From contig NC_081822.1 in the NCBI RefSeq assembly GCF_030704535.1, positions 10,905,001-10,969,000 on the forward strand: a DNA stretch of 64,000 nt, read 5' to 3'. The stretch is from Vitis vinifera. Taxonomy: Eukaryota; Streptophyta; Magnoliopsida; Vitales; Vitaceae. Positions 21,401 through 48,544 of this stretch are shown here, in pieces (positions within the stretch are counted from its first letter, which is position 1; every line of letters starts with the position of its first letter). The position numbers and the translations under genes were made by a program. The notes beneath the pieces are model-generated. The model saw only the letters and a program-made list of their open reading frames with translations. It was not told the DNA's origin and ran no database searches.

Positions 21401-24400
21401 TTTTTATTTTTTTGTGAAGATCATGGGATCATTCACGAAACTACTCATCCTTATTCCTCTTAGTCTAATGGAGTAGCAGAAAGGAAAAAAATAGGACCTT
21501 AAAAGAAATTATGAATGCAATGTTGGTAAGTTCAGGAGCACCCTTGAACTTGTGAGGGAAATTTATTCTATCCGCATGTCATATTCAAAATAGAATACCT
21601 TACAAGAAAACTAGTAAAACTCCTTATGAGTTGTGGAAAGGTTATGCGCCTAATATAGCATACCTGAAAGTGTGGAGGTGTTTAGCTAAAGTTCTTCTCC
21701 CTTAACCTAAAAAACGAAAACTAAGTCCTAAAACCTTCGATGCAATGTTCATGGGCTAAGTTAGGAATAGTGCGACGTATAGGTTTCTTGTTACTAAGTC
21801 AAAAAACAATTATGTAGATGTCAATACTATAATAGAAACAAAGAATGTAGATTTCTTTGAAAACATCTTTCCTGTGAAACTAAATGGTGAACAACAAGTT
21901 CAGAAAACAAGTAGAGAAAAATCTATTGAACCTTCTGAATTTGAACCTAAAAGGAGTAAAAGATATAGGAAAGAAACAAACCTTGGAGATGATTTCTACA
22001 CCTTTCTAATAGATGAGGACCCTATATCCTACAAATAAGCTATAACTTCTCCTGATGCACCATTCTGGAAGGAGCCCATTAACAATGAAATCAAATCAAT
22101 CATGTATAACCATACATGGGAGTTAGTAGATTTACTTCTTGGTGCAAAGACTATTGGTTGTAAGTGGATCTTTAAAAGAAAATTAAAACAAGATGGGTCC
22201 ATAAAGAAGTATAAAGCTCATTTAGTTGTCAAAGACTTTAAACAAAGGAAGAATGTAGATTACTTTGACACATTTGCCCCTATGACTAGAATAGTATCAA
22301 TTAAAGTATTGATTGCTCTAGCTTCCATTCATAATTTGATGATACACCAAATGAATGCCAAGACTACATTCTTGAATGAGGATTTGGAATAGGAAATGTA
22401 TATGGATCAACCTAAGGGTTGTGTAATTCCAGGGAAGGAGAAAAAGGTGTGTAGATTGGTTAAACCACTATATGAGTAAAAACAAGCTCCCAAACAGTGG
22501 CACAACAAGTTTGATCATGTATTAGCAACTAATGGATATTCCATTAATGATGATGATAAGTGTATCTACAACAAGTATGAGGATAACACATGTGTAGTCA
22601 TCCGCCTTTATGTTGATGACATGCTGATATTTGGAACTAGTCTATAGGTCGTATGTGAGACTAAGAAATTCCTAAGTTCTAAGTTTGATATGAAAGACCT
22701 AAGAGAGGCAGAGGTGATTATAGGAATTAAAATAACTAGAACACCTAATGGGATTAAACTTTCTTAAGAGCACTATGTTGAAAAGATTCTAAGGAAGTTT
22801 GAACACTTTGATTGTAAACCAGTGTCAACTCCTTATGATCCCAGCTCATAGCTGAAGAAAAATAGAGAACATGGTGTTGCCCAAATAGAGTATGCTCAGA
22901 TCGTAGGGAGCCTAATGTACTTAATGAACCGTACTAGACCTGACGTTGCTTATACAACAGGTAGATTGAGGCAGTACACCCAAAGTCCTAATCAGGACCA
23001 TTGGACTGTTGTTCGTAGAGTTCTTAAGTATTTGAGAGGTACCATTAACTATAGTTTGTGCTTTAATGCATTTCCAAGTGTTCTTGAAGGATTTAGTGAT
23101 GCAAATTGGATCTCAGATTTAGATGAGATGAAATCCACTAGTGGATTTATTTTCATCATTGGTGGAAGTGTAGTTTCTTGGAAGTATACCAAGAAAACTT
23201 GCATTACTCGGTCTATTATGGAGGTTGAATTTATTGCCTTAGAAAAGGCAAGTGCTGAGGTTGAGTGGCTTGAAAACCTCTTAGTAGATATTCCTTGATG
23301 GACGAGACCAACCACATCTGTGTCTATGCGTTGTGATAGCCAAACTGCAATTGCTAAGGCTAAGAGTAAATTACTTAATGGGAAGAACACGCATATACGT
23401 CTAAGGCACAATATTGTGCGACAACTGCTTAAAACATGGGTTATATCCCTAGAATTTGTGAGGTTAGAGTTGAATTTGGTCGATCATTTGACCAAACCAC
23501 TAAATAAGAAACTAGTGGAAGAAACATCGAGAGGGATGGGGCTTATGCCTATTACAGAAGTCAAAAGTGATGGTAACCCAACCTATTAGAATGGAAATTC
23601 CATGAAGTAGGTTCATATGGATAATAACAAATCACTTGTTGTCTTGAGGTGTTCTATCAACTCTAATTGTATGAGAGTCTATCCCTATGGTATAAATAGA
23701 GTGTATTCTACATTGATTAAGGTTGAGTGTTTACTCTTAATGAATACCATATTCCTTATGGATGGTATGTTTAAATACAAAACATACTTGATGGATTCAC
23801 CTATATGAGAGTAGAGGCGGGACTGCTTCCTATGAGAACTTAGGCAAGTTCTCTAGAGCTCTCATGAATATCGAGGTAGGGCACATGGCCTATTTGTGCC
23901 AACTCATTTGTATAGCTCGTATCGTAGTTGAGAAAACCAATATGGATAAAAGTCCCTTGAGTTACATCAAGAAACACTGGTTCATAGAAATTTATTTTTA
24001 CCGTGTTTTGTGATTCAATACTTATTTGTCCTAAGACTGGTTCATCGCCTTTGGGCACCATTATTGATGCATTGGATTTTTTTTTCCTAAAAAAAAATAA
24101 AAATCATGTTTACACTCTATGGGGATTGTAGGAAGAGTGTAAATAATTTTTTTTTTCTATTAGTCTTAAATTTTTGGGAAGAATCCTATTGGAAATTATT
24201 TTTATTTTATATTATTTTATTCTATTATATTCTACTAGTCTTATATTTTTTGGAAGAGTCTTATTGGGATTGTGCTAGTGGAGTCTCATTCTATTTATAA
24301 GTAGAGTCATCTTCCACTTTGAGTCATATTCTAATTACACATAAAGTCTCATTGGAACTGTGTTAGTGGTCTATAAAAGCAAGTCACCCCTCACTCTCTA

Positions 24401-26825
24401 TATATGAAAACTAATTTTTCAGAGAGTTTTTCATACATCTATCTGGAGGAATTTTTTCAAAACCTGAGTTGTACACATCTCGCTTACAGAATGCACCCAA
24501 AGCAAGATCTGGTTGTTGAATCCTGAAGGTAGACCATTGGTACCCTAGTGCACCGAGTTTATCTTCGAGGAGGATGGATGGTGGATCTATTTCAATGACA
24601 GTGTTTGTCACACCTCAATCGATAAGTTTTTCTTCTTATTAATTTTGTTCTTTGTTTGTATCTTTTGGGCTAATCATTTGTTTCCATACCCTTAAATCCA
24701 ATAGGAGTAATGCAATAATGTCGACAAACAATACATGCACACTAGATAGTTAATTTATTAATAAAAATGATCACTTCCAAGTTGAGTTTAAGTTATTGGA
24801 GATTTGGACCGACCTAATTAGGAGTCTGGTGATGTGTCTGTAGCACTAGTGTTCGAGATGGGGCCTCGTATAATTATTTCACGTAATTTACTTAATAATA
24901 AAAAAAAAATTGATATGTACCTCTGAGACCATGCTCATTAGTGCTCGTGCTAAGAGTTCAAATTGGTAGCAACTCTCATCTGCAGCGGGATCTGGAGATC
25001 TCCTACCCATGAATGACAATACCATGCGTCCTTTGGGAACTATCTCTTCCGATCGTGACTTGAGAAATAGTGAGAAGTCCTTCTGGAATTGAATCAAGTA
25101 TGCTTCCAGAACGCAAAGCGGGCTTGTCTTTGATATATAAATCTTTCCCCTGTTGTGTGTGGTGGCCTTGCTGTCCAAACCAAGTGGAACCTACATACAT
25201 TCATGGATTAATTCTTTGTTAGCATTGTCGCATACTCAAGTTTAAATTGTACATTATATGGCTTCACAATCCGAATAAAGCGCCCCATCATCCACTAATT
25301 AAAATGGCACACCATCCTAAAAGATCACTTGGTGCATGCCAAAAACAAAAAGCAATTGATATTTTAGGGCAAAATGTAGTGATTGTGATTGTGACTAAAG
25401 TAGCGACTAATAAAAGGGCACCCATTTATGGTCACATTATTTAGCAGCCCTATTCTTGTGAACACGAACCAAACCGTGTTCACAAGAACACGAATTAAAT
25501 ATCATTCTTAAATAAACAAACCAATTGTCATGTTCTTGAGAACATTACTACATATAACTGAAAGGGGATCATCTCTATTATAAGAAGTTATTATTCGCTC
25601 CAATAGGAGAATGACACATGAACTCTTCATAAATATAAATATCAAAGAAGGTTTAAGGAAAAGACAATAAAAAATTAGTGTACTTACAATGACATTTCTT
25701 AACCAAATCATGCACACACATGAGTACAAAATAAAAAAACATGATATTTTTAATATGGTTTTACTATCAATATGATCTCTACATCTACAAAGCACATCAA
25801 CACTAAAACATACATTAATCAAATGAAAGAGAAAGAGTTCATAGTACAATGATGAAGCTCTCACAAGCTCTCTCAATTGCAACTATGTATTCTAAACAAA
25901 ATTCTAACAACCTAACAATATTAAATATACAATAAGGACAAACTCGTTATTCATCATATAAAAAAAATTTCTCTACTCAACCCCGGCATCCCAAGTCAAG
26001 AGCAACAAAAGTTATTCACACTTTACAATCCAACAACATGACAGTAAGGGCATGATGCCAACATTGAAGACACTTACGCAACAATATTGCTTTTATTCCA
26101 ATCCAATGAAATGGCCACATTAACAAACCTGAGAGAGCCAATGAAGGCTGGAAGAGGAGTGCACAAAGTGCATACTCTTGGTTGGGAACAGCCTCCCATA
26201 AAATGAACCAGGCATCCCAACTATAAAACATGGCCCGAATCCTGAACCCTTTTCTTCCTTCAATTTGGTGTAAAAAGCTGGGAGTGAGCCAAATACATTA
26301 TTGAAGTCATTGGTGGTAAGATCGTTCAAGTACACCCTAAACTCCGGTGATGAACCACAGCCCTGCAGGCACCATTTGGCATATATGACGTTCAATATCT
26401 CTGATATCACCAATAAGGTGTTGGGTCCAGATGAGCATCCCAAATCCCCAATGCCTATGCTGTCTGCAGACAAGTGGTTGCTCAACATGTCTAGTATAGC
26501 TTCCTCAGTTATGCGCTTCCCAGCAGATATAATGTTGCTCTACAAAAGGGAAAACATTTTCTCTTCCAATTGATTAAACATTTATGTCGTGTCTACTTAC
26601 CTTCCACATTCTAGCATTAAAAGAATCGATCTCAAAAAATGAAAGGAATCGATCTTTGATAAACACACGGGACAGTAAAGCAATTAATGAGAAGAACGTA
26701 ACATATGATAGATTCATAGAATACATAATAGTATAAGAATGGAACTCCACCTGAACCGACGAGTTCTTCGCATAACTGGTCTCCCCAGATCCGCCGTTCA
26801 TGTGAAGCTTTTGCATCACTTCCAT
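18456..26825 (-). CDS. SABATH carboxyl methyltransferase (SABATH-1)
   Basis: SAM-dependent methyltransferase that would methylate the carboxyl of a small acid such as jasmonate, salicylate or benzoate. Four exons (26751-26825, 26129-26539, 24921-25190, 18456-18836), all phase 0 with GT-AG ends, give 378 residues, normal for the family. It starts [21 protein letters not shown]. Visible motifs are Gln25, the SAM loop [19 protein letters not shown] and the pocket [12 protein letters not shown]. Where known salicylate enzymes have Tyr and Met it has Ser and His, which favours a jasmonate-type pocket. The usual pocket Trp of exon 3 (YQWELLA in its neighbours) is Phe (YQFELLA), and the C-terminal KYINLVISL is KYIVLVISL, so its substrate may differ. 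Intron 3 (18837-24920) holds an antisense Copia element. The reading frame is intact. Confidence 0.85.
18888..19468 (+). repeat. 5' LTR of the Copia element
   Basis: 581 bp from TGTTGGAGTTGTAGG to ACCCTTAAATCCAACA. A TATA-like CTATAAAAAC lies near 19130-19139. The copy at 24118-24703 is colinear but visibly diverged by substitutions and small indels. Confidence 0.85.
21133..21339. mobile_element. MITE nested in the Copia element
   Basis: A 207-bp element with inverted ends GGTGGTGTTTGTTTTTT and AAAAAACAAACACTACC, flanked by TAA on both sides (21130-21132 and 21340-21342). Inner sequence is also palindromic (CATCATCCAACATAA near 21212, TTATGTTGGATGATG near 21262). It interrupts the Copia integrase region, so it inserted after the Copia element. 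TAA flanks suit PIF/Harbinger (Tourist-like) elements. Confidence 0.8.
24118..24703 (+). repeat. 3' LTR of the Copia element
   Basis: 586 bp, colinear with the 5' LTR. It has decayed ends (TATGGGG for TGTTGGA, TCCAATA for TCCAACA). A CTATAAAAGC promoter-like word lies near 24371-24380. Confidence 0.8.
25453..25488. repeat. Perfect 14-bp inverted repeat in SABATH-1 intron 2
   Basis: TTCTTGTGAACACG (25453-25466) and its exact reverse complement (25475-25488) are separated by the 8-base loop AACCAAAC. On either strand this folds into a perfect hairpin. Confidence 0.85.
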
Positions 26826-32300: not shown

Positions 32301-33013
32301 TCTAGTTTTCTTTCCAATAGTCTTAATTCCATTCTGGTCTTCAAACAATCTTCTGCTCCTCTTGTTTTTAATAAGCGTGAATGCAATTTTCATAATTCCT
32401 AAATAATGGAATTTGTGATATTAATTCATGCAAGATTAATCGGGTTTTGGTGGGGGCCTCACGTACATGATCTTATGATCTATTGATTGATTGACTTGGT
32501 TATCATACATGATTTATTTATCCTGCTCTCCGACATGCATGCTATTATTTCTTAATTGTGCACTAACCTCTCTCTTGATAGCGCATGGTGGCTCGTCGCC
32601 CAGGTACGCACCTACTTTCACTCTGGTAATTGTCCAAGCATATTTTGATTCTCACGTGTGCATGATTTATTCTGGGTACTCATCGATCTACTCGTCCTGC
32701 TATGATTGCCTCATTTTATTAGTAGAGACCCGTTTTTAGAGACTTAGAAGGGTGCTATGGTTTTTACCGTACCTTCCTAATAAGTAACCTAACCCCCGAA
32801 CCCGATCCCGTTTTTCACAGACCACCTCTTCCAAAGTAAGGAGTCACATTTAGGGTTTTTCTTTCTTATTTTGTTTACCCTTTAAAAATAAAACAAAAAT
32901 AAGTTGCGACTCCAAGTCATTTTCGAATAATCAATAAATCAATTTTTCAAATAAAATCGAGTTCGCCATCGAGTGGAAAACGCACGAGCCGAAAATATGG
33001 GGTCCACAGATTG

Positions 33014-34357
33014 CTAAATATCAAATGCACTCTAATATATAAAGGAAATTTATTATTATTTTTAATTATCTTCTCAATGCACATACATGCTAATTTTCAC
33101 TTTCAAATTAAAATTAGACTAAAATATTTTTGAAGTTTGGTATGATTTTATTTTTTTATTTTTCTAAAAAAGGGTTGGACTTTTGTTTTGATTTTCAAAA
33201 TAGTTTTTTTATTCTTAGAAAAGGAAAATAATTTTGTAAACTTGTAAAAAATAAAGTCAAACAATAGGCCTTTTTATAAATAAATAAATAAAAATCTTTG
33301 ATCATTTTTAAAAATTATTGTATAGATGAGCTAAAAAGTACATAAATAAACCACTTTTCTTCTTTTAAGTCTCTATTTATTGTAAGTCACTTGTAATAAT
33401 AAAAAGTTAAAATTTAATAAAAGTGTTCTACATTATTAAAACTTAAAAAAATGAATTTTCTAAAATAAGATTAAAAAAAACATATCTATTCCATTTGAAT
33501 TGCTCTCTACCTATTTTATCATAGCATGTTACAAATTAATTAGGTAATGGTGAAAAATTGCTAAAGAGTACTTATTTTACTATAATTTTCTTCTATTTAA
33601 ATTTTTATTTTTGATATTATTTAATAATAAATATAATGAAATTAATGATCATATATATTGACATTTAGTTTTCTTATTTAACTTAAAATAATTGGTCATA
33701 TTCCTTTTTTTTTAATTCCCCTATTTTTTTATTATTTATTTTGTAGTTCAACTACTAAATAAAATTTATGAATAAATCATTGTTGAATATATAAAATGTT
33801 ACTCCTATATCATAATATTTTTTTTCTCTTTGTTTTTTAGACTTGAAATTAAGTCGTATAATAAATTAATAAATTTTATACAAAATATATATACATTTTT
33901 TTTTGTTTAAGTATATGATAGAATAATTGTCTTTCATTATCTACTAATTTCAATGATAAGATATCAAACGTAAATATATAAATATTCTTTATATATCACT
34001 ATTTCCAATTCATATGCAATCTTTTATTATTTTTATTTAAAATTTTCAATAATTATGGGTTAAGGTGCACAAACACACAAATAGATTGAACTCATTGAGA
34101 AGAGGGCCCATGGGTTTACCCTTCGGTTGGCCCATTGAGTTGAATAACTCTCTTTAATTATAGGCTTTTAGCCCATTAGGGTTGAGGTGGGTATATACCA
34201 TATTTTACAATTTTTCTGTTAAATAGTGATGCAAAGCATGGAAAATTACAAAAGAGAGGAGAGCAAAGGAAGAACTTCAATGGTAATACTAACGGAACAT
34301 CAAGAAATTTATTGTATGTTGATCACAAAGTACATGTACTCTAGCTTCTACATTTCA
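33014..34357. other. Unit A intergenic DNA, 3' flank of SABATH copy A
   Basis: Colinear with 41790-43134 in unit B apart from small indels. AT-rich, with no gene seen. A partly palindromic segment around 34085-34145 (GAACTCATTGAG...CATTGAGTTGAA) is present in both units. Confidence 0.45.
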
Positions 34358-37300
34358 TTAAACTTTTCTTACAAGGGAGATGACCAAATTAATATACTTA
34401 GCCCTTGTCTTTGCCAAGTGATCGCCCACCATCTCACCGTACCTTTGAAATAAACCATCCATTACATCTCCTCCAAAATGGCTTGCTAGCATGGACTCAA
34501 CCACAGCTCTAATTGTCTTAGCCACTCGTGCTCCATTTGATAGCGTTGAGGACGTGGGAGTTGCATCATAATTATCACCATCACCCCCATCCCAATCTAT
34601 TTCAAACATTTCCAGCCGATCTAAGATGAATGACCCCTCTTTGTATATTCCAAATTTCACTTCTTCCGGACTTGGTGCATAGTATGGAGCATCGAATGAA
34701 TCAACCTTTTTCTCTTCGATTAGACCCTGCATTTAGGAGAAATATGTTCTATTTAATTTTGGCAATCGACCCTCACAAATTTAAATAATATCATACAAAC
34801 TTCTCTTTTTTCGATAAACTGGAAAACCTTATGATGTCAAATTTTTTACTGAAGGAATGAGTAAAATGCATGAATGAACATGTTATGAAATTCATCAAGT
34901 TGTTAAAAAGGTATTTAATATGACTTAATGACTTAATTTAAGTCATAAATAAATTAAACATATTTTATAAAATAATTTAATAATCATAACTTAAAGTTAA
35001 AAATAACTTCAAGTATTAAATTAAAATAATGAACTTATCTTTAATCTTAAATTTCTTTTAACTCATTTTTTTCATATCTAGTGAGACTAAATTTTAATTG
35101 AGACTCCACATGCACAACTTATTTTTAAAGTTAAAATATAACTTTAAATATTAAGTTATAATAATTAACTTATTCTTAATTTTTTACCTCATTTTTATAT
35201 AACTAATGAGAATATATTTTATAATTATTGACTCATTTTTTTATATTAAATACTTTATGATTTGCCTCATATAGCAAAAAAAAAATTATTACTTATAAAA
35301 ATTAATAAAAATAAATAATAATAAAAAATGGTGATAGTAAATATATTCTATGATGATTTAAAATAAATTTTAAGTTGAATTATATCTTAAAATAAAAATA
35401 AGTATTATATGATAAATTAAATCAATAATTTAATTTAAAATTAATTGAAATGATCAAATAATATGCATTAATTAATTTTATCCTCAACCTCTCCAAATGA
35501 TAAGAGGCAGGCAAGATTGAGAGGGGCTAGAAAAAATCGGGTAGATTTTTTTAGCATTAGTAGGTAGGGTTATGGTAGACGAGTGGTCCCAAGTGAGAGG
35601 GATAATTGGTGCCACCAACTGACCAACCTCAACAGCCCTCGTGGAGACTGTGAACACAACACACAGTGCGACCACAAATGCAGATTATGCTGTGATTCTG
35701 TCTGGTTTAGAGCTTCCATCCGCTTCTCCACAATGAAAGATGAAAAAAGACAAAAAAAAAAAATGGGGGGAAGGAAGAAGTTCGATTGAATAGATATATA
35801 TACCTCCGAAACCATGCTCATGAGTGCTCGGGCTATGAGCTCCCACTGGTAGCAACTCTCTTTTGAACGAGGGTCTGTGGATCTCCTGCCCATGAAGGAC
35901 AACACCATGCGTCCTCCCCCCACTATTTCTTCTGCACGTGACTTGAGAAACACTGACCAGTCCTTCTGGAACTGCGATGAGTATGCCTCCAAAACGCAAT
36001 CTGGACTCGTCTTTGATATGTAAATTTTTCCCTTGTTCCAGCTCCCTCTCCCATCCTTGCTCTCTAGACCCGGTGGAACCTGCAAATAAATGTTCATCCT
36101 TTCTTTTCTCAGTATAATTCACGTAGGGCTTCCTCGTATGTGAGGGAGTACTTGCCCCCAAATCAGTTACATTTAATAAAAAAAGAAAAGAAAAAAAGAT
36201 CGGAAAAAGAAAAACAGAGAAGAGAGAAAAAAAAAAAAACATCTACCCAGATTTCATCAATAAGTCAATCCCATTTCATCTATGGTCCGATCCAGTTGAA
36301 ATTTAAAGGAGAGATTTGAAACTCGAATAGCTACAATCTGAATGGTGGAAATCAGATTTTGAGTTCGGAAATTGGTGTTGCTGCCCGTGAACAGTAACAG
36401 TGTTTTTTTGTTTACTTTCCTCAATTTTTCTTTGTTTCTCTTGTCAAGAGAGATTATATAATCCGATGTTATATGTGCTCTTGATATATTTGGTAATCTT
36501 TAGTGATTATTTTAGAGAAAACAGGTGCAACTCATTATTGTTTATAGTCAAAGTTTGAATCGTACTATGTCTTATGATTTTTTCTTTCATACAAAAGGTT
36601 TTCCATATAAAAATTATGGTATCTGTTTTATTTTTCTATTGCATGAATTTATTTATTTATTACTACTAGTTATTATTGTCTATTTAATTTTACACAAAGA
36701 AATTATATAAAAATCCTGATATTTATTGGAATATTGTGATTTCACCCTAACAATTCAAGAGATAGGTCTTGTTAAATTGTAATCATTATCTTAGAATAAT
36801 GTTATTTTTCTATCTCAATTGTATCACATCTAAATGTTGAAATAGTGATTGAATACATTCAAAGAAAATTAGTTATTAATATGTATTGAATGGGATAAAA
36901 GCGATTAATATAAAATGGCAAACAACAAACATTTAAACAATTGGGTAAAAATGGAAGAGAATAGCATTACTCAGGGTGAGAGGGAAGAGTAATACTATTC
37001 ATGGCCAGGGGAGGATTGATTTTAGCGCTGTCTCTTCAAAAGGAACAAGCTGTTGAAGGTTGAGGGAGAGAGAACACATATTGAATATATGGTCCTTCTA
37101 CAGACGGGCATGGTGGCTCCTGGGAACCGGTTCATATACCAGTCTAGACCATGGTCGGTGTTTTTCTAAGTTGGGTCAAAGGAGAATAAATATAAGGAAA
37201 TACAAACAAACCTGAGAGAGCCAGTGGAGACTGGAAGAAGAGTGCACGAAATGGAGACTCTTGCTTGGGAACACCCTCCCGTAAAATGAACCAGGCACAC

Positions 37301-37944
37301 CCGATATAAAACATGGCCCAAACTCGGAGCCTTTCTCTTCCTTGAGTCTGTTGTAAAATGCAGGGAGTGAGCCAAACACATTGTTGAAGTCATTGCCGAT
37401 GAGATCATTCAAGTACACCCTAAACTCAGGCGAACAAGGACGACCCAGCTGCTGCCATTTGGCATATATCACGTCCAGTATCTCTGACACCACCAACAAG
37501 GCGTTGGGTCCAGATGAGCAACCCAAATCCGCAATGCCTACGCTCTCAGGCAAGACATTGTTGAATATATCTAGTATAGCTTCCTCCGTCACTGGTTTCG
37601 CTGTGGATATAATGTTGCTCTGCAAAAAAAAATTGAATAAACAGCTATGAGCTTTTCTCGATCTAAAGCAAAAAGAGAAGAGATATATAAGCAGCAGAAA
37701 TCACAAAAAAATTGGCAATCTGGGAATACATTAATATTTTCTTTGTGTGGGGTTCAACATTTCTTGCTAGCTATGGTTCTGTCAACTTTCTATGTATGCC
37801 TACTCCATTTACTAAAAGTACTGGGAATCATAAAAATCATATAATCTTACAAGGATGAAACTAATCAACCTGAACTGTGGAGTTGGTTGCGTAACTTGTC
37901 TCCCCAGCCCCTTTGTTCATATGGAGTACTTGCATCACTTCCAT
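34358..37944 (-). CDS. SABATH methyltransferase, JMT-like, copy A
   Basis: Four phase-0 exons: 37870-37944, 37212-37619, 35804-36079 and 34358-34726, coding 375 residues. It starts [20 protein letters not shown]. It has Gln25, SAM loop [19 protein letters not shown], pocket [13 protein letters not shown] (Ser154 and His157 where Clarkia salicylate methyltransferase has Tyr147 and Met150), and Trp240 in YQWELIA, the likely counterpart of pocket Trp226. From memory, a Ser at this spot (Ser153) and an Asn near the C-terminus (Asn361) steer Arabidopsis JMT to jasmonate; KYINLVISL here may supply that Asn. Methyl jasmonate synthesis is thus the best guess, with salicylate or benzoate as alternatives. 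A TATATAAA box lies about 100 bp upstream. It differs from copy B at eight coding bases by my reading, five changing an amino acid. Confidence 0.88.
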
Positions 37945-38045
37945 CTCTCTCCACACAATACAAACTCAATTGCAATGAAGAATTTTAGTCTAAAGACTGG
38001 AAAATCCGGATAGAAACTTAAATGGAAAGCATAGAAGGGAGGTGC

Positions 38046-38053
38046 TTTATATA
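38046..38053 (-). promoter_or_regulatory. TATA box of SABATH copy A
   Basis: The minus strand reads TATATAAA about 100 bp upstream of the ATG at 37944. The same box is kept in copy B at 47067-47074. Confidence 0.6.
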
Positions 38054-38371
38054 CAAGTCAGGTAGCAAGTATGCTGAATGATTTGCTAACCTCCGATAAA
38101 ATCTAGAAACCTAGCTATCCTGCCATAACCAACCAAAGCTAGCCATCTACAAAATATGTGGTTTTCGATAACCTCCTGTGGATCCCGTTGACCAGCGCGC
38201 CGCCCGTAACATGACAACCACATCCTTATTTGTTGGGTTCCTTTCCTCATTATTCACGTACTTGCCTTTTAAGAGAGCCAACCCCACACACCCTAACAAA
38301 ATATTTGACCAGCCATAAAAAAGATTTGGTTTTTCTATTTGAAAATTTCAGCTATCACCGGCCGGATTTTT
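38054..38371. other. Promoter side of SABATH copy A
   Basis: Upstream DNA shared with copy B (about 47075-47390). It includes a GC-rich GACCAGCGCGCCGCC word near 38191. No coding sequence is seen. Confidence 0.45.
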
Positions 38372-38580
38372 TCTCCTAAGTTCTCTTCCAATGGTTGACT
38401 TGTGCCATTTATCACATTTATCACATTTCTCCTAAGGTCTCTTCCAATGGTTGACTGCATCTAAGTCTTGGGAATGGGGGACTTGTGCCATTTATCACAT
38501 TTATCACATTTCTCCTAAGTTCTCTTCCAATGGTTGACTGCATCTAAGTCTTGGGAATGGGGGACTTGTGCCATTTATCA
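38372..38580. repeat. 83-bp tandem repeat at the duplication junction
   Basis: Units start TCTCCTAAG at 38372, 38428 and 38511; the last two are 83 bp apart and the first lacks 27 bp. The last unit is cut short at CCATTTATCA, where the duplicated SABATH-1 sequence begins. The matching array in unit B is at about 47392-47570. Confidence 0.85.
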
Positions 38581-39048: not shown

Positions 39049-42000
39049 CTCTCTCCACGCCCTACAAACTCCGGTGAATAACAGGGAATGCTGATGCTAT
39101 ATCGTAACTTACACCACGTGGTTCTGCCATACCAAGATAATAATTTTAAAATGATTTCTAAACCGTGCATGCACGACAACAACCAATCAATGGTATAAAA
39201 TGTAATATCATTTTTATATTTCAATTTTTTATCTCTTTCCATGTTCCACCGTGCATGATTCATTCATATTAACAAAATAATTCTTTATATGGGTCCAATT
39301 CAATCATTTATGGTACTCTTTATCAAGATCTAACAAAAATATTGATGCTGTTAATTATTTTGCAACCTGTCAAAATAAACTGACTCTAGTTTCTAGGGAA
39401 ATTGATCTTTTTCCTGCTTTTGGCCACAATTTGCCGTATGAAATGGCACCTAATCGGCTACTAACTGATTACAAAATCTCAGGCAAGCGGACATGACTCG
39501 GTCCCTAGGCCCTAGTTATCAGTTTATGTGCATTAGCTTTTCAAGATTTGAATCACATGGTGCCATGGGATGCACGTTACCGGCTATTAAAGGGTAATTA
39601 ATTACGTACAAATCTCATATCAACCCTACATGACTGTCGGTCCCTACCTCCTACCAGTTTATATATGTTCAACATTATCTTGGTAAGATTTGAAATCACA
39701 TGGTCAGCTGACTCCGAATCGCAAAAAATCAATCCGTTTTTAAAATATATTCTTAAATGATTATTTGTCAAAGTACTTTTTGTTCTAAAAGCAGAGAAGT
39801 GCTTAAAAAAAAATACAGTTTTCAAACAGCTGGTAGGGCTCTCTGCCTCTCTCACACATCAAACCATATAGGGTCTGATTCATGGGTCGACGTCACCAAG
39901 GTCACTATGGTTTTTACCAAATAGAAATTAACCAATATCATAAAGCACTCACAAGAATCTATACATTGTGGATTGGGTCGTCATTATTCCGAGTGATGGA
40001 GCCATGTGTTCCACTTCCCAGAACAGTTGCTCAATTATGTTGAGTGGAGTGGGCAGGGCTTGTACGTCATGTGTTTTAGTTTGAGCGATGAAGACAAGGG
40101 GGACGTGTCATCATAATTGGACTTCATTTAAATTTCAAAATCCCTTTGGAAGAAATTACATAATAAGTACAACCAGTAGTTACAGTGCTTTTTAGACTTG
40201 ATAAGCCTATATTTGGTGTCAAGGCTCAAATTTCAATTTGCTACCGCCAAGATTCGATCCAGGCATAAGGCTTTGGGTTTAAGTTTGGTACCACTAAATC
40301 ATCTTTTCTTTTGTTACTATATATACATAATAAATATCTTAAAGTTCATTATTAAAAAATAATATGTTATTTCAAAATTTAATTAATTAATTAATTAATA
40401 TATAAAATCCACCATTATAATTTTTTTAACAAGTATTTTTTAATATCATTAATATGATAATTAAATTTAAAAAATATAAATATTAAAAATTCAAATATGC
40501 ATCATCATTTATTTTATATTATTGAATATTTGAATTAAATAAATTTTAATTTTAATATTAAATGTATCATCATTATTTCATTAATCTTATTTTTAAAAAT
40601 GACTATCACTTCACTTTTAAATTTTTTATATTTATCCTTTTAATTTTGAATGTTTTTATTTCAAAATATTAAAAATATAAATTTATTCAAAAAATAATAA
40701 TAATTAAGTTCAAGTATTTTATAAATTAAAATTAATTTAATCATATAAATAATATATTATTAATACTCATATAGCTTTACTTACCGATATTTTTTTTTAA
40801 CTATATTTATATCAATTATATTTTAAAAAATAATAATTTTAATATATATGTTTTATTTATTTTATCATTTTTTTTTTAGTTTTTTTTAAATATTCTCATA
40901 AATTTTAAATAATTTTTATCTTATTAATATTTTTATTAAAATATTCATCAATATTTCTCTAAATTTTTTTATATATTTATAAAATCAATAGCGAATATTC
41001 GTGTTAATCACTATTTCAAACTTGAGCTAAAACTCATGTCCCACCTTGGACCACTCCACCTAAAATATCAAGCCATGACAAGACAACAAAAAGGTCACAG
41101 GCCATAGAAAATAATGTAATCATGCACGATTTAATCTCCAATAAATATACAAGCCCAAATCAACAAAGCCAGTAAACAGTATCCAAAGCACAATGAACAA
41201 AACCAAGTCTCCAAACAATGTACTGTGAAGATTTAACGGAAGATAGAAAGAAAGACCTACCGCTTTTGAAATGATAGTGGAAAGAATGGGTGTCGTAGTG
41301 GAGAGATGGCGTCAGTGCCACCGGCGTTGAAGCGAAAATAGCCACTTGTGGTGAACTTCACAATGGATGGTGATGGCGGTGCTCACAGTGGGGTGATGAC
41401 ATGGGAGCCGTGGGTATGGTGTGAAAAAGAGAGAGATAAGATATGGCCGGAGGGGGGAACGCCGGTTTCGGAAAGGACTGTCGGCCGACAGTGGAGTCGT
41501 CGGTGGTGAGAAGGGCCGCCGTCGTGGGTATGATGGTGTGGAGAGAGAAGAGAAATAGAGAGAGGGAAGAGAAAGGTGGCCTGTGGGTGTGAGGAAAATG
41601 GAAAGAAGAAGAAAAGAGAGAAAATGGGGAGGAAATGAGGGTGAGTGGAATTGTCGCGGGGATCAGAGAGAGAGAAGGAGGGGGGGGTTTTAAAATCTCC
41701 AACAAAGTATTTTTAAAAATAAATATAAATCTTAATTATAAAATCCAATTATATAAATCCTAAATAAAAAATCTAGTTGTATATGATTGCTAAATATCAA
41801 ATGCACTCTAATATATAAAGGAAATTTATTATTTTTTTTAATTATCTTCTCAATGCACATACATGCTAATTTTCACTTTCAAATTAAAATTAGACTAAAA
41901 TATTTTTGAAGTTTGGTATGATTTTATTTTTTTATTTTTCTAAAAAAGGGTTGGACTTTTGTTTTGATTTTCAAAATAGTTTTTTTATTCTTAGAAAAGG

Positions 42001-43134
42001 AAAATAATTTTGTAAACTTGTAAAAAATAAAGTCAAACAATAGGCCTTTTTATAAATAAATAAAAAAAATCTTTTATCATTTTTAAAAATTATTGTATAG
42101 ATGAGCTAAAAAGTACATAAATAAACCACTTTTCTTCTTTAAGTCTCTATTTATTGTAAGTCACTTGTAATAATTGAAAGTTAAAATTTAATAAAAGTGT
42201 TCTACATTATTAAAACTTTAAAAAAAATGAATTTTCTAAAATAAGATTAAAAAAAACATATCTATTCCATTTGAATTGCTCTCTACCTATTTTATCATAG
42301 CATGTTACAAATTAATTAGGTAATGGTGAAAAATTGCTAAAGAGTACTTATTTTACTATAATTTTCTTCTATTTAAATTTTTGATATTATTTAATAATAA
42401 ATATAATGAAATTAATGATCATATATATTGACATTTAGTTTTCTTATTTAACTTAAAATAATTGGTCATATTCCTTTTTTTTTTAATTCCCCTATTTTTT
42501 TATTATTTATTTGTAGTTCAACTACTAAATAAAATTTATGAATAAATCATTGTTGAATATATAAAATGTTACTCCTATGTCATAATATTTTTTTTCTCTT
42601 TGTTTTTTAGACTTGAAATTAAGTCGTATAATAAATTAATAAATTTTATACAAAATATATATACATTTTTTTTGTTTAAGTATATGATAGAATAATTGTC
42701 TTTCATTATCTACTAATTTCAATGACAAGATATTAAACGTAAATATATAAATATTCTTTATATATCACTATTTCCAATTCATATGCAATCTTTTATTATT
42801 TTTATTTAAAATATTCAATAATTATGGGTTAAGGTGCACAAACACACAAATAGATTGAACTCATTGAGAAGAGGGCCCATGGGTTTACCCTTCGGTTGGC
42901 CCATTGAGTTGAATAACTCTCTTTAATTATAGGCTTTTAGCCCATTAGGGTTGAGGTGGGTATATCCGTATATACCATATTTTACAACTTTTCTGTTAAA
43001 TAGTGATGCAAAGCATGGAAGATTAAAAAAGAGAGGAGAGCAAAGGAAGAACTTCAATGGTAGGACTAACGGAACATCAAGAAATTTATTGTATGTTGAT
43101 CACAAAGTACATGTACTCTAGCTTCTACATTTCA
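39049..43134. other. Unit B intergenic DNA
   Basis: Colinear copy of 26826-34357 without the 3.35-kb insertion. No gene recognised. It includes the unassigned purine-rich block (about 41160-41700) and AT-rich DNA. It differs from unit A by scattered substitutions and by indels, such as loss of the doubled segment near 41060. Confidence 0.5.
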
Positions 43135-46100
43135 TTAAACTTTTCTTACAAGGGAGATGACCAAATTAATATACTTAGTCCTTGTCTTTGCCAAGTGATC
43201 GCCCACCATCTCACCGTACCTTTGAAATAAACCATCCATTACATCTCCTCCAAAATGGCTTGCTAGCATGGACTCAACCACAACTCTAATTGTCTTAGCC
43301 ACTCGTGCTCCATTTGATAGCGTTGAGGACGTGGGAGTTGCATCATAATTATCACCATCACCTCCATCCCAATCTATTTCAAACATTTCCAGCCGATCTA
43401 AGATGAATGACCCCTCTTTGTATATTCCAAATTTCACTTCTTCCGGACTTGGTGCATAGTATGGAGCATCGAATGAATCAACCTTTTTCTCTTCGATTAG
43501 ACCCTGCATTTAGGAGAAATATGTTCTATTTAATTTTGGCAATCGACCCCTCACAAATTTAAATAATATCACACATGTTGGGACGTCATTTGTTTGTTTT
43601 GGCCCTGGGCAGCCGCATGGGCCGGATACCAGAGTGGCCTCCCCAGGATTCGAACCCAAGTCCAAGACTTAAGGACGATAAAGTTGCCCTCCTGGTACCA
43701 TCTGTGCTAGTAGTGCAGATGGTACCAGGAGGGCAACCTTATCGTCCTTAAGTCTTGGACTTGGGTTCGAATCTTGGGGAGGCCACTCTGGTATCCGGCC
43801 CATGCGGCTGCCCAAGGCCAAACAAACAAATGACGTCCCAACAACACAAACTTCTCTTTTTTCGATAAACTGGAAAACCTTATGATGTCAAAATTTTTTA
43901 CTGAAGGAATGAGTAAAATGCATGAATGATCATGTTATGAAATTCATCAAGTTGTTAAAAAGGTATTTAATATGACTGAATGACTTAATTTAAGTCATAA
44001 ATAAATTAAACATATTTTATAAAATAATTTAATAATCATAGTTAAAAATAACTTCAAGTATTAAATTAAAATAATGAACTTATCTTTAATTTTAAATTTC
44101 TTTTAACTCATTTTTTTCATATCTAGTGAGACTAAATTTTAATTGAGACTCCACATGCACAACTTATTTTTAAAGTTAAAATAAAACTTTAAGTATTAAG
44201 TTATAATAATTAATTTATTCTTAATATTTTACCTCATTTTTATATAACTAATGAGAATATATTTTATAATTATTGACTCATTTTTTTATATTAAATACTT
44301 TATGATTTGCCTCATATAGGAAAAAAAAAATTATTACTTATGAAAATTAATAAAAATTAATAATAATAAAAAAATAGTGATAGTAAATGTATTTTATGAT
44401 GATTTAAAATAAATTTTAAGTTAAATTATATATTAAAATAAAAATAAGTATTAAATGATAAATTAAATCAATAATTTAATTTAAAATTAATTGAAATGAT
44501 CAAATAATATGCATTAATTAATTTTATCCTCAACCTCTCCAAATGATAAGAGGCAGGCAAGATTGAGAGGGGCTAGAAAAAATCGGGTAGATTTTTTTAG
44601 CATTAGTAGGTAGGGTTATGGTAGACGAGTGGTCCCAAGTGAGAGGGATAATTGGTGCCACCAACTGACCAACCTCAACAGCCCTCGTGGAGACTGTGAA
44701 CACAACACACAGTGCGACCACAAATGCAGATTATGCTGTGATTCTGTCTGGTTTAGAGCTTCCATCCGCTTCTCCACAATGAAAGATGAAAAAAGACATA
44801 AAAAAAAATGGGGGGAAGGAAGAAGTTCGATTGAATAGATATATATACCTCCGAAACCATGCTCATGAGTGCTCGGGCTAAGAGCTCCCACTGGTAGCAA
44901 CTCTCTTTTGAACGAGGGTCTGTGGATCTCCTGCCCATGAAGGACAACACCATGCGTCCTCCCCCCACTATTTCTTCTGCACGTGACTTGAGAAACACTG
45001 ACCAGTCCTTCTGGAACTGCGATGAGTATGCCTCCAAAACGCAATCTGGACTCGTCTTTGATATGTAAATTTTTCCCTTGTTCCAGCTCCCTCTCCCATC
45101 CTTGCTCTCTAGACCCGGTGGAACCTGCAAATAAATGTTCATCCTTTCTTTTCTCAGTATAATTCATGTAGGGCTCCCTCGTATGTGAGGGAGTACTTGG
45201 CCCCAAATCAGTTACATTTAATAAAAAAAGAAAAGAAAAAATGATCGGAAAAAGAAAAACAGAGAAAAGAGAAGAGAGAGAAAAAAAACATCTACCCAGA
45301 TTTCATCAATAAGTCGATCACATTTCATCTATGGTCCGATCAAATTGAAATTTGAAGGAGAGATTTGAAACTTGAATAGCTATAATCTGAATGGTGGAAA
45401 TCAGATTTTGAGCTCGGGAATTGGTGTTACTGTCCGTGAACAATAACAGTGTTTTTTTATATACTTTCTTCAATTTTTTTTTGTTTCTCTTGCCAAGAGA
45501 GATTATATAATCCGATGTTATATATGCTCTTAATGTATTTGGTAGTCTTTAGAGATTATTTTAGAGAAGATAGCTGGAACTCATTATTATTTATAGTCAA
45601 AGTTTGAGTTGTACTAGGTCTCATGATTTTTTCCTTCATATAAAAGAGATTTATTTTTCTGTTGCATGAATTTATTACTACTAATTATTATTGTTTATTT
45701 AATTTTGCACAAAGAAATGATAGAAAAATCCTGATATTTATTGAAATATTGTGATTTCACCCTAACAATTCAAAAGATAGGTCTTGTTAAATTGTAATCA
45801 TTATTATAGAATAATGTTATTTTTCTATCTCAATTGTATCACATCTAAATGTTGAAGTAGTGATTGAATACATTCAAAGAAAATTAGTTATTAATATGTA
45901 TTGAATGGGATAAAAGCGATTAATATAAAATGGTAAACAACAAACATTTAAACAATGGGGTAAAAATGGAAGAGAATAGCATTACTCAGGGTGAGAGGGA
46001 AGAGTAATACTATTCATGGCCAGGGGAGGATTGATTTTAGCGCTGTCTCTTCAAAAGGAACAAGCTGTTGAAGGTTGAGGGAGAGAGAACACATATTGAA

Positions 46101-46965
46101 TATATGGTCCTTCTACAGACGGGCATGGTGGCTCCTGGGAACCGGTTCATATACCAGTCTAGACCATGGTCGGCGTTTTTCTAAGTTGGGGGCCAAAGGA
46201 GAATAAATATAAGGAAATACAATCAAACCTGAGAGAGCCAGTGGAGACTGGAAGAAGAGTGCACGAAGTGGAGACTCTTGCTTGGGAACACCCTCCCGTA
46301 AAATGAACCAGGCACACCCGATATAAAACATGGCCCAAACTCGGAGCCTTTCTCTTCCTTGAGTTTGTTGTAAAATGCAGGGAGTGAGCCAAACACATTG
46401 TTGAAGTCATTGCCGATAAGATCATTCAAGTACACCCTAAACTCAGGCGAACAAGGACGACCCAGCTGCTGCCATTTGGCATATATCACGTCCAGTATCT
46501 CTGACACCACCAACAAGGTGTTGGGTCCAGATGAGCAACCCAAATCCGCAATGCCTACGCTCTCAGGCAAGACATTGTTGAATATATCTAGTATAGCTTC
46601 CTCCGTCACTGGTTTCGCTGTGGATATAATGTTGCTCTGCAAAAAAAAATTGAATAAACAGCTATGAGCTTTTCTCGATCTAAAGCAAAAAGAGAAGAGA
46701 TATATAAGCAGCAGAAATCACAAAAAAATTGGCAATCTGGGAATACATTAATATTTTCTTTGTGTGGGGTTCAACATTTCTTGCTAGCTATGGTTCTGTC
46801 AACTTTCTATGTATGCTTACCCCATTTACTAAAAGTACTGGGAATCATAAAAATCATATAATCTTACAAGGATGAAACTAATTAATCAACCTGAACTGTG
46901 GAGTTGGTTGCGTAACTTGTCTCCCCAGCCCCTTTGTTCATATGGAGTACTTGCATCACTTCCAT
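43135..46965 (-). CDS. SABATH methyltransferase, JMT-like, copy B
   Basis: Four phase-0 exons: 46891-46965, 46229-46636, 44849-45124 and 43135-43503, coding 375 residues. Same motifs as copy A: Gln25, [28 protein letters not shown] and Trp240. By eye the two copies differ at eight of 1128 coding bases. The five amino-acid changes (A to B) are Ala to Thr in GPNALLV, Arg to Lys in AFYNRLK, Ile to Leu in WELIARA, Ala to Val in KTIRAVV and Ala to Thr in KTRAKY. None touches a predicted SAM or substrate contact, so both copies should share one activity. Intron 3 (43504-44848) holds a palindromic insertion absent from copy A. TATATAAA lies at 47067-47074. Confidence 0.88.
43576..43843. mobile_element. 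268-bp palindromic (foldback) insertion with tRNA-like A and B boxes
   Basis: A near-perfect inverted repeat: TGTTGGGACGTCATTTG at the left end and its complement CAAATGACGTCCCAACA at the right, arms of about 128 bp, with a short loop near 43700-43712. It is flanked by ACACA on both sides (43571-43575, 43844-43848). Unit A has the empty site ATACA at 34793-34797. The right arm carries TAGTGCAGATGGTA (from 43711) and GGGTTCGAATC (from 43763), which resemble the A and B boxes of a Pol III tRNA-type promoter with tRNA-like spacing. The left arm carries both in mirror image. It may be a head-to-head SINE-like dimer or another foldback element. Lies in intron 3 of copy B. Confidence 0.85.
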
Positions 46966-48544
46966 CTCTCTCCACACAATACAAACTCAATTGCAATGAA
47001 GAATTTTTGTCTAAAGACTGGAAAATCCGGATAGAAACTTAAATGGAAAGCACAGAAGGGAGGTGCTTTATATACAAGTCAGGTAGCAAGTATGCTGAAT
47101 GATTTGCTAACCTCCGATAAAATCTAGAAACCTAGCTATCCTGCCATAACCAACCAAAGCTAGCCATCTACAAAATATGTGGTTTTCGATAACCTCCTGT
47201 GGATCCCGTTGACCAGCGCGCCGCCTGTAACATGACAACCACATCCTTATTTGTTGGGTTCCTTTCCTCATTATTGACGTACTTGCCTTTTAAGAGAGCC
47301 AACCCCACACGCCCTAACAAAATATTTGACCAGCCATAAAAAAGATTCGGTTTTTCTATTTGAAAATTTCAGCTTTCACCGGCCGGATTTTTTCTCCTAA
47401 GGTCTCTTCCAATGGTTGACTGCATCTAAGTCTTGGGAATGGGGGACTTGTGCCATTTATCACATTTATCACATTTCTCCTAAGTTCTCTTCCAATGGTT
47501 GACTGCATCTAAGTCTTGGGAATGGGGGACTTGTGCCATATATCACATTTATCACGATATTTCAGGATTTTTTTTCACATTCATCACGTTTCAGTGGTTA
47601 AATTCGGGATGTCTCCATGTTTAGAAAACAGCAACCCCACTTGGTCAATCATACCGTTAATTCTTATATCATCAATTATAAAATAAGTATTATTTTTTTT
47701 ATTATTATTTGATCAACATCTTTAATATTTTCATGAATTTCAAGTAATTTTTATCTTATTAATATTTAATATCAAAATATCTATTAATATATTTCGTGAT
47801 TATCATCGATTATTTGTCAAAATCGATATCTTTATGCTTACTCATAGGATAATTATACAAATAAATTAATTATAATAAAATATAGAATATAAATAAATAA
47901 GACTTAGACATAAACTCATATGACCTAAAAATGTGTAAATAGTGCCATTGATGGATGATATCTTTTTTACATTTATCTGAATGTACATTTCGGTTGGTTG
48001 TACGATCAAGAATTTTCCTCACGTTGGAAAATAAAAACCATATAAAAGTTAAAACAAAGAGAAAGTGGGTTGTATCATGTATGTACCATCATCTAGACTA
48101 ATTGTGCATAGGCCGGCCCACTTTTTGAAAAATTATTTCTCATTTCTCTTTCTTCTTTGCATCCATCACGTGGACGGTTGAATGTGGTGAAAATTTGAAA
48201 AACATATAAATCAAGTACCAGATATTTTGGGTTTGTTTGCCCACCGTTTTTTTTTTTTTCTAAAAGTATAAATCAAGTATTAATATTTTGGATTTGTTTA
48301 AAACCAATAGTTCAAAATAGTTTTTGAGAACAATATTTGAAAACTATTATAAGAAGTTTTCTAAAATAAAAGTCTATTTGAAAATCTAAAAGATTTTTAT
48401 CATATTTTAATATTTTTAAACATATTTTAAAAATAAATTTTATGTTTAATGTTTTATTTTTAATCATTTTACATGTTTATATAATTATTTTTTAAAATAA
48501 TCATAAGAAAATAAATAAAAATAATATAAAATAACAAAAAGATG
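46966..48544. other. Upstream DNA of SABATH copy B, then unique DNA
   Basis: Up to about 47547 it matches unit A, including two units of the 83-bp repeat at about 47392-47547. Beyond this the homology ends and the sequence is unique. A segment at about 47730-47800 belongs to a dispersed AT-rich family also seen near 28680, 40890 and (inverted) 54850. 48281-48540 resembles the MITE-like element at 51707-52075. No gene is seen. Confidence 0.5.

Follow-up and report, generated by a model that had tools for sequence, protein, structure and literature searches.

How did a near-perfect palindrome with a tRNA-like promoter in each arm come to lie within a plant methyltransferase gene? The window, the 64,000-nucleotide stretch of grapevine DNA that we analyzed, holds such a structure at positions 43576-43843. 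Checking the sequence confirmed the 268-bp palindrome, the mirrored A and B boxes and the TG...CA-type ends that an earlier note had described. The arms are 96% complementary over 43598-43709 and 43711-43822 and 100% complementary over 43576-43599 and 43820-43843; when aligned, they differ at 5 of 133 positions, all transitions, and by one indel. The predicted RNA folding energy is -271.2 kcal/mol, compared with a mean of -90.5 for shuffled sequences (z -36). A chance palindrome was rejected.

The termini are TGTTGGGAC...GTCCCAACA, and the arms run outward from position 43710, with an A box, a B box and then a tail ending in GACGTCCCAACA in either arm. Pattern searching placed the boxes at tRNA-like spacing, mirrored and outward-reading, with A boxes at 43698-43709 on the minus strand (TAGCACAGATGG) and 43711-43722 on the plus strand (TAGTGCAGATGG) and the B box GGTTCGAATC at 43647-43656 (minus) and 43764-43773 (plus). 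ARAGORN called no tRNA anywhere in the window, and an Rfam scan of the window detected no family at threshold; at a loose threshold, all six matches of the palindrome were to hairpin-like families, namely miRNA precursors and one viral element, and stayed sub-threshold. A six-T run at 43857-43862 starts 14 bases past the right end of the palindrome, and a predicted Pol III transcript of the right arm could thus terminate there.

Comparison of the flanks, and of the host gene with its paralogue, revealed how the palindrome entered the locus. Copies of ACACA flank it at 43571-43575 and 43844-43848, while the paralogous gene unit carries a single ATACA at the corresponding place (34793-34797) and no insert, bearing out both the target duplication and the empty site proposed from the sequence earlier. 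The aligned blocks of the two units are 97.8% identical (33009-34797 versus 41785-43575) and 95.5% identical (34795-38507 versus 43846-47555). Since ATACA occurs once and the insert is missing in the paralogue, the palindrome entered as one unit, after the tandem duplication. This duplication of methyltransferase units spans 26356-47555 of the window. The product of the host gene is a Methyltransf_7 (SABATH) protein, with profile matches from two host exons, and the palindrome starts 72 bases from an intron acceptor predicted by inspection at 43503/43504.

We searched the window's own assembly (495.6 Mb in 21 contigs) and obtained at least 155 matches to the insert, the best 40 of 128 first-look candidates being scored; a second search scored the best 40 of 61. 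We examined 51 non-overlapping loci (L012, L016, L026 and L028-L075), which are the best-scoring places and not a random sample; L064-L075 were taken as 1.3-1.9 kb pieces, and some of their ends may fall outside. Three modules build these 51 loci: a 70-base head with both boxes (H), a 64-base tail a with the terminus CCCAACA, and a 98-base tail b with the terminus GACGTTTT or GACGTTTA. The last 20 bases of the a-end are TGTTGGGACGTCATTTGTTTG. We refer to H plus tail a as alpha and to H plus tail b as beta; the window copy is alpha'alpha. Its left arm consists of tail a at 43576-43639 (outer end TGTTGGGACGTC) and the head at 43640-43709, both on the minus strand, and its right arm of the head at 43711-43780 and tail a at 43781-43843 (outer end GTCCCAACA), both on the plus strand.

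Longer copies combine the same units. At roughly 510-590 bp, the usual order is alpha' beta alpha' alpha, in either orientation (L032, L051, L056, L058 and L060); L040 and L044 are degraded copies resembling this arrangement, and L057 (544 bp) is alpha' alpha' alpha alpha. Bigger copies measure 963 (L030), 995 (L054), 1015 (L055), 1129 (L053), 1365 (L047) and 1692 bp (L074). Tail b usually abuts the a-end of the next unit, with TTTTTG at 20 and TTTATG at 12 of the 32 joints caught by a pattern. The final 27 bases of tail b, CACCAGAGCAAAAAAGGCCGACGTTT(T/A), abutting an a-end, gave separate matches of 86-100% across sub-types in several of L028-L075. In head segments selected through their boxes, conservation stays near 90% for 15 bases past the A box, and the middle of the head is variable. 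A cmscan of seven family loci gave no tRNA match, and searches of viral contigs, bacterial genomes and plasmids returned nothing, or 18-mer matches without a nearby B box (11 of 11). Thus, the palindrome is one copy of a dispersed, modular family of small mobile elements. The other genome copies on which the earlier note had made its reading depend are present, and its core observation stands; it had overlooked the longer, modular copies and the single-base signature, described below, at the palindrome tip.

To define the ends of the copies, we took the outermost matches to two motifs (left, TGTTG[AG][AG]AC[AG]T; right, A[CT]GT[CT][CT]CAACA). Both sides had a-type ends in 33 of the 51 loci, and 18 were without one such end. 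The 33 loci comprised 25 with an exact 5-bp duplication, two with one mismatch (L058 and L073) and six (L016, L031, L037, L061, L062 and L063) in which head or tail b lies outside the tested a-ends; at L016, a stray end motif was also picked. When left and right flanks of different copies were mispaired, 1 of 1056 combinations matched. Two loci have exact duplications with one end of the head type, namely L016 (CTAAG; left end TGTTAGCACA) and L029 (CAAAG; right end TGCTCAACA). Exact duplications therefore total 27 of 51 loci, and 25 of the 27 have the same end, inverted, on both sides, at a-end-to-a-end lengths from 148 to 1692 bp. Inspecting flanks for 5-bp duplications, a check suggested beforehand, thus yielded an integrase-like pattern with TG...CA ends. 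The 25 target sites are weakly palindromic (RTN-GTWAC-NAY, by eye), and equal symmetry occurred in 40 of 2000 controls. In the portion of PMC6911290 available to us, plant LTR elements that make 5-bp duplications are reported to have a weak palindromic preference at their target sites.

Single-arm versions, which had also been proposed as a thing to look for, exist in two forms. L042, L045 and L046 have one head, carry the duplication and keep both outer a-ends, and so resemble palindromes that have lost internal sequence. In L034, L048 and L049, the element stops at the head and no duplication was found; these look like half-palindromes. As the first three keep outer ends and the others are without a duplication, we rejected single-head copies as founders. 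Other copies with a head-type end (L031, L059, L061, L062 and L063) had no convincing duplication in the end scan.

We next compared the arms of the 14 head-to-head alpha'alpha pairs caught by a pattern, among which L031/L032, the pairs within L054 and the pairs within L055 are not independent. Arm divergence was 0 in six pairs and less than 1% in five; the remaining three were L063 (1.6%), the window copy (2.4%) and L036 (6.2%). Within a pair, both arms share a sub-type (for example, 120 + 120 bases in L031 and L032, 133 + 133 in the caught L030 pair), the exception being L036, with arms of 133 and 128 bases; the arm lengths of one L054 pair differ by 4 bases. Despite this near-identity, a single position, the fifth from the centre (N in TAGC-N-CAG, within the A box; the fifth base of the box at 43711-43722 in the window copy), is discordant in 13 of 14 pairs, the mismatch being A/G in nine, C/G in three and A/C in one. 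At the other 59 positions, 17 of 826 cells are discordant, 13 of them in L036, for which the arms were compared without gaps. At N, all six pairs that are otherwise identical (L016, L031, L032, L054 twice and L058) are discordant, with A/G in four and C/G in two. When the scan was widened to joints of any arm type, 7 of 30 had the same base at N on both sides; among joints whose arms shared at least 95% identity, the figure was 2 of 18. In a set of 57 different A-to-B segments, no base accounts for more than 30-40% at N, whereas the bases beside it hardly vary.

The window copy has three base differences apart from the tip. At these positions the alternative base is present in 47, 56 and 53 of 56 other arms, and the window copy's states are shared with 0 to 2 of the 56. 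Its right arm carries two of the changes, one C to T and one G to A, the kinds that methylation of a repeat would favor. Since these states are private or nearly so, they look like later mutations, suggesting that at insertion the two arms differed at the tip only. Against this, the arms differ at 5 of 133 positions, versus 17 of 971 and 17 of 1779 in the flanking gene copies (chance 0.085 and 0.009; pooled, 0.025), which means that the repeat mutates faster or that some differences are older than the insertion; with the two tip bases set aside, the excess loses significance (0.36, 0.11 and 0.19).

Both differences at the window centre are also compatible with CpG decay of TAGCGCAG. Such decay could account for the tip mismatch in the window copy and in the nine A/G pairs. 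It does not fit the C/G and A/C pairs, however, and the A/G pairs of L031, L032, L058 and one L054 pair show no other difference despite about five CpGs per arm. We therefore rejected it.

The reading that we favor, at a probability of roughly 0.5, is that a small non-coding retroelement of Pol III type, with a design akin to tRNA-headed TRIMs, produced the palindrome as a dead-end insertion. Pol III would start just upstream of H, yielding an RNA that begins at the head and continues through tail a. A putative primer would set the start of first-strand DNA precisely at the tail-a terminus, and the cDNA, on reaching the RNA 5′ end, would often add one untemplated base. The tip of this cDNA, ...GCTAxTAGC+N, could then fold back, GCT pairing with AGC around the loop A-x-T, and extend from N, copying itself. 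The product would be a head-to-head palindrome with the a-end TGTTGGGAC at both outer ends, which an integrase of the LTR-retrotransposon type, perhaps Copia-like and supplied by another element, would insert with a 5-bp duplication. Longer, beta-bearing copies would be sources or partly completed products.

Several observations bear on this snap-back model. A base that is discordant at a constant distance from the centre of otherwise identical arms is hard to explain as a copied base and fits the last base of a primer. Under snap-back, the RNA would begin a few bases before the A box. This is the region in which Pol III is expected to initiate, but a distance of 5 bases is shorter than usual in tRNA genes, which counts against the model. 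Both ends of the product would correspond to the first-strand start, that is, the a-end, as seen in the 25 of 27 exactly duplicated copies. DNA folding of the window tip gave a three-base loop, and L055 and L057 contain small central duplications (repeated TAGCCCAGATGG and TAGCACAG) that look like slippage at the start of snap-back. The left LTR of a Copia element in the window has the ends TGTTGG...CCAACA, which we count in the model's favor. Tip bases match in 1 of 14 pairs, more rarely than a random untemplated base predicts (by our estimate, roughly a third). We considered TGGTACCAGGAG in the head as a tRNA-Leu primer site and rejected it, as the corresponding tRNA-Leu gene pattern, GTTCGANNCCNNCTCCTGGTA, had 0 matches in the genome. 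The conserved stretch beside the a-end matches no tRNA 3′ end known to us.

Self-priming of this kind has a precedent, as fold-back of minus-strand strong-stop DNA is documented for HIV-1 in the available part of PMC4668388, and the work is also cited in an excerpt of PMC10986323. The proposed fold-back of first-strand DNA near the RNA 5′ end is the same in both systems. Self-priming by HIV-1 is an abortive side product, described as an aberrant by-product that nucleocapsid protein suppresses, whereas the family's version appears to integrate repeatedly. The grapevine genome seems to hold many integrated self-priming products, marked by a single-base footprint where the RNA 5′ end is presumed to lie, which would allow self-priming to be studied by counting genomic copies. 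A further suggestion from the family is that an integrase of the LTR type can use molecules whose two ends are the same.

A DNA transposon could instead account for the inverted ends. Here the element would be a hairpin MITE-like transposon with terminal inverted repeats (TGTTGGGACGTC...), a captured tRNA-like SINE head and a transposase that makes 5-bp duplications. Identical inverted ends in 25 of 27 exactly duplicated copies and the variable length between them fit this well; direct LTR-internal-LTR order occurs in one duplicated copy (L029), and inverted ends dominate, as in a TIR DNA transposon. Hairpin MITEs are likewise short inverted repeats that give small RNAs. Near-identical arms with a single tip mismatch in 13 of 14 pairs would be unexpected from cut-and-paste transposition, however, and L016 and L029 combine exact duplications with one end of another type. 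The family also differs from hairpin MITEs in keeping Pol III boxes, and we know of no plant DNA transposon superfamily with 5-bp duplications. We regard a MITE-like origin as improbable, but as an explanation to be taken seriously.

The palindrome could also be a solo LTR or part of a tandem array of a tRNA-headed TRIM resembling Helenus, with alpha as the LTR, beta as the internal region and the inversion produced by recombination or inverted integration. Helenus elements (TRIMp3; Kojima, 2024; PMC10886601) are short and non-coding, with tRNA-like boxes in the terminal repeat and, in plants and fungi, 5-bp duplications, the only plant listed being Selaginella. They have two direct LTRs, a PBS and a PPT (PMC10886601). 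The grapevine family is like Helenus in its 5-bp duplication and in having A and B boxes within the terminal repeat, its boxes being found by pattern and without an Rfam tRNA match. Helenus has direct LTRs around an internal region, whereas among the 27 exactly duplicated grapevine copies only L029 does (alpha'-beta-alpha', within CAAAG); L059 has the same order without a convincing duplication. As for a PBS or PPT, the last 27 bases of tail b give the 86-100% matches noted above, and no tRNA matched. Since direct LTRs are not the rule and any PBS or PPT would be putative, we do not file the family as Helenus, although it may work similarly. The main text of PMC10886601 does not mention palindromic, inverted or hairpin forms.

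Tandem TRIMs come close in another respect. The accessible part of PMC4717578 (Gao et al., 2016) describes tandem TRIM arrays within one 5-bp duplication, one of them inverted, with two inverted TRIMs in maize SMART; like these, the grapevine copies are arrays of LTR-like units inside a single 5-bp duplication. It also lists five TRIM families in grape, with 228 and 8,890 copies (taken as complete and total copies). These may or may not include the palindrome family, as the text consulted gives no match; the main text mentions no tRNA, PBS or palindrome, and the portion consulted describes no tip-base signature. Cassandra, a TRIM headed by 5S rRNA, shares with the family a short, non-coding design and a Pol III promoter inside the LTR but differs in being 5S-derived and in having direct LTRs (PMC10886601). 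The L029 structure favors a TRIM array, as does L032, in which the three alpha units share one sub-type and the beta head differs. Recombination between direct LTRs leaves one LTR, though, and not a palindrome with two a-ends, and we rejected a solo LTR formed by simple recombination. With direct order in only 1 of 27 exactly duplicated copies and the tip mismatch unexplained, we judge an origin from a conventional TRIM array unlikely.

The nearest kinds are thus tRNA-headed TRIMs such as Helenus and inverted tandem TRIMs, of which we consider the family a variant, and the statement in the earlier note that the palindrome fits none of the standard classes was too strong, with Helenus and the inverted tandem TRIM of maize close by. 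Our search of the literature for palindromic or inverted LTR, TRIM and SINE elements found no like description, a statement that holds for that search alone; judged by title, the plant TRIM paper alone among those listed was relevant. The family suggests that tRNA-headed TRIM-like elements extend to a flowering plant.

Snap-back by a Pol III-type retroelement, the reading that we favor, has a bolder form in which it is the regular mode of replication rather than an accidental event. The tip GCTAxTAGC would be built for fold-back, and beta RNA might supply the family's own tRNA-headed primer. The predicted end of beta RNA at the T-run GACGTTTTT would give it a 3′ end complementary to the conserved stretch abutting tail a, where it may act as a primer. 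If such a hairpin retrotransposon exists, a single LTR end would be enough to make an integrable molecule. We put this form forward tentatively and consider it doubtful.

The earlier note had also raised the possibility that the hairpin is a source of small RNAs, and a published grapevine pair does match family members exactly. Vvi-miRC68 (TGGTACCAGGAGGGCAACTGTC) and its star (TGTTGCCCTCCTGGTACCATC) are reported among grapevine small RNAs, at 1.05 and 0.09 normalized reads, respectively, in a gibberellin-treated library and none in the control, in the section of PMC3937062 at hand. The exact miRC68 sequence occurs at five sites in 4 of the 51 loci and the exact star at three sites in 2 of the 51, and never both at one locus. 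Comparison of the window copy with the published sequences identified a stretch like Vvi-miRC68, with two mismatches, at 43679-43700 on the minus strand, and one like the star, with one mismatch, at 43682-43702 on the plus strand. Paired by eye, the two RNAs leave a 2-base 3′ overhang on one side, of the kind produced by Dicer. Because the exact matches lie in several dispersed family loci, both RNAs most likely derive from this repeat family, which suggests that at least one published grapevine microRNA should be reclassified as repeat-derived. The converse, that the palindrome is a paralogue of a genuine microRNA gene represented by Vvi-miRC68, could draw on the same exact matches and overhang; we consider it very improbable, as the matches are dispersed over 4 and 2 loci with none in common and define no single locus, and as a nearly perfect 268-bp hairpin is more like a source of siRNAs.

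Least probable of all, and rejected, is that two SINEs inserted head to head, or that a single SINE was duplicated in place: the tRNA-like head with its A and B boxes would fit, but there is a single outer 5-bp duplication where an inverted pair, as the earlier note pointed out, should show separate ones, there is no A- or T-rich tail, the same ends and head-to-head joints recur at many loci, and the paralogue has the empty site. Plant tRNA-derived SINEs do resemble the family in the tRNA-like head, here with boxes at tRNA-like spacing and no tRNA family match, and the beta unit is SINE-like in its terminal T-run; the family's 5-bp duplications, two identical outer ends and want of an A/T tail set it apart from them.

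We also noted features of neighboring sequence. In both L031 and L035, GGGTCCCTACAT lies immediately to the left of the element, reflecting a shared repeat or a shared site. In L061 and L063, the head-type ends adjoin GACGGCG / GGCGCCGTC sequence, which we take to resemble the beginning of a Gypsy element's internal region, a possible case of nesting. A second, weaker palindrome (21166-21320; 155 bp, 84% self-complementary), with by eye no sequence relation to that at 43576-43843, lies inside the Copia element of the window. This element occupies 18888-24701, has matches to Pol_BBD, gag_pre-integrs and RVT_2, and has LTR-like repeats that are 82% identical; its left LTR has the ends TGTTGGAG...TCCAACA (TGTTGG...CCAACA), and its right LTR is decayed, with both ends gone. 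The Copia element adjoins exons of a third, diverged methyltransferase gene.
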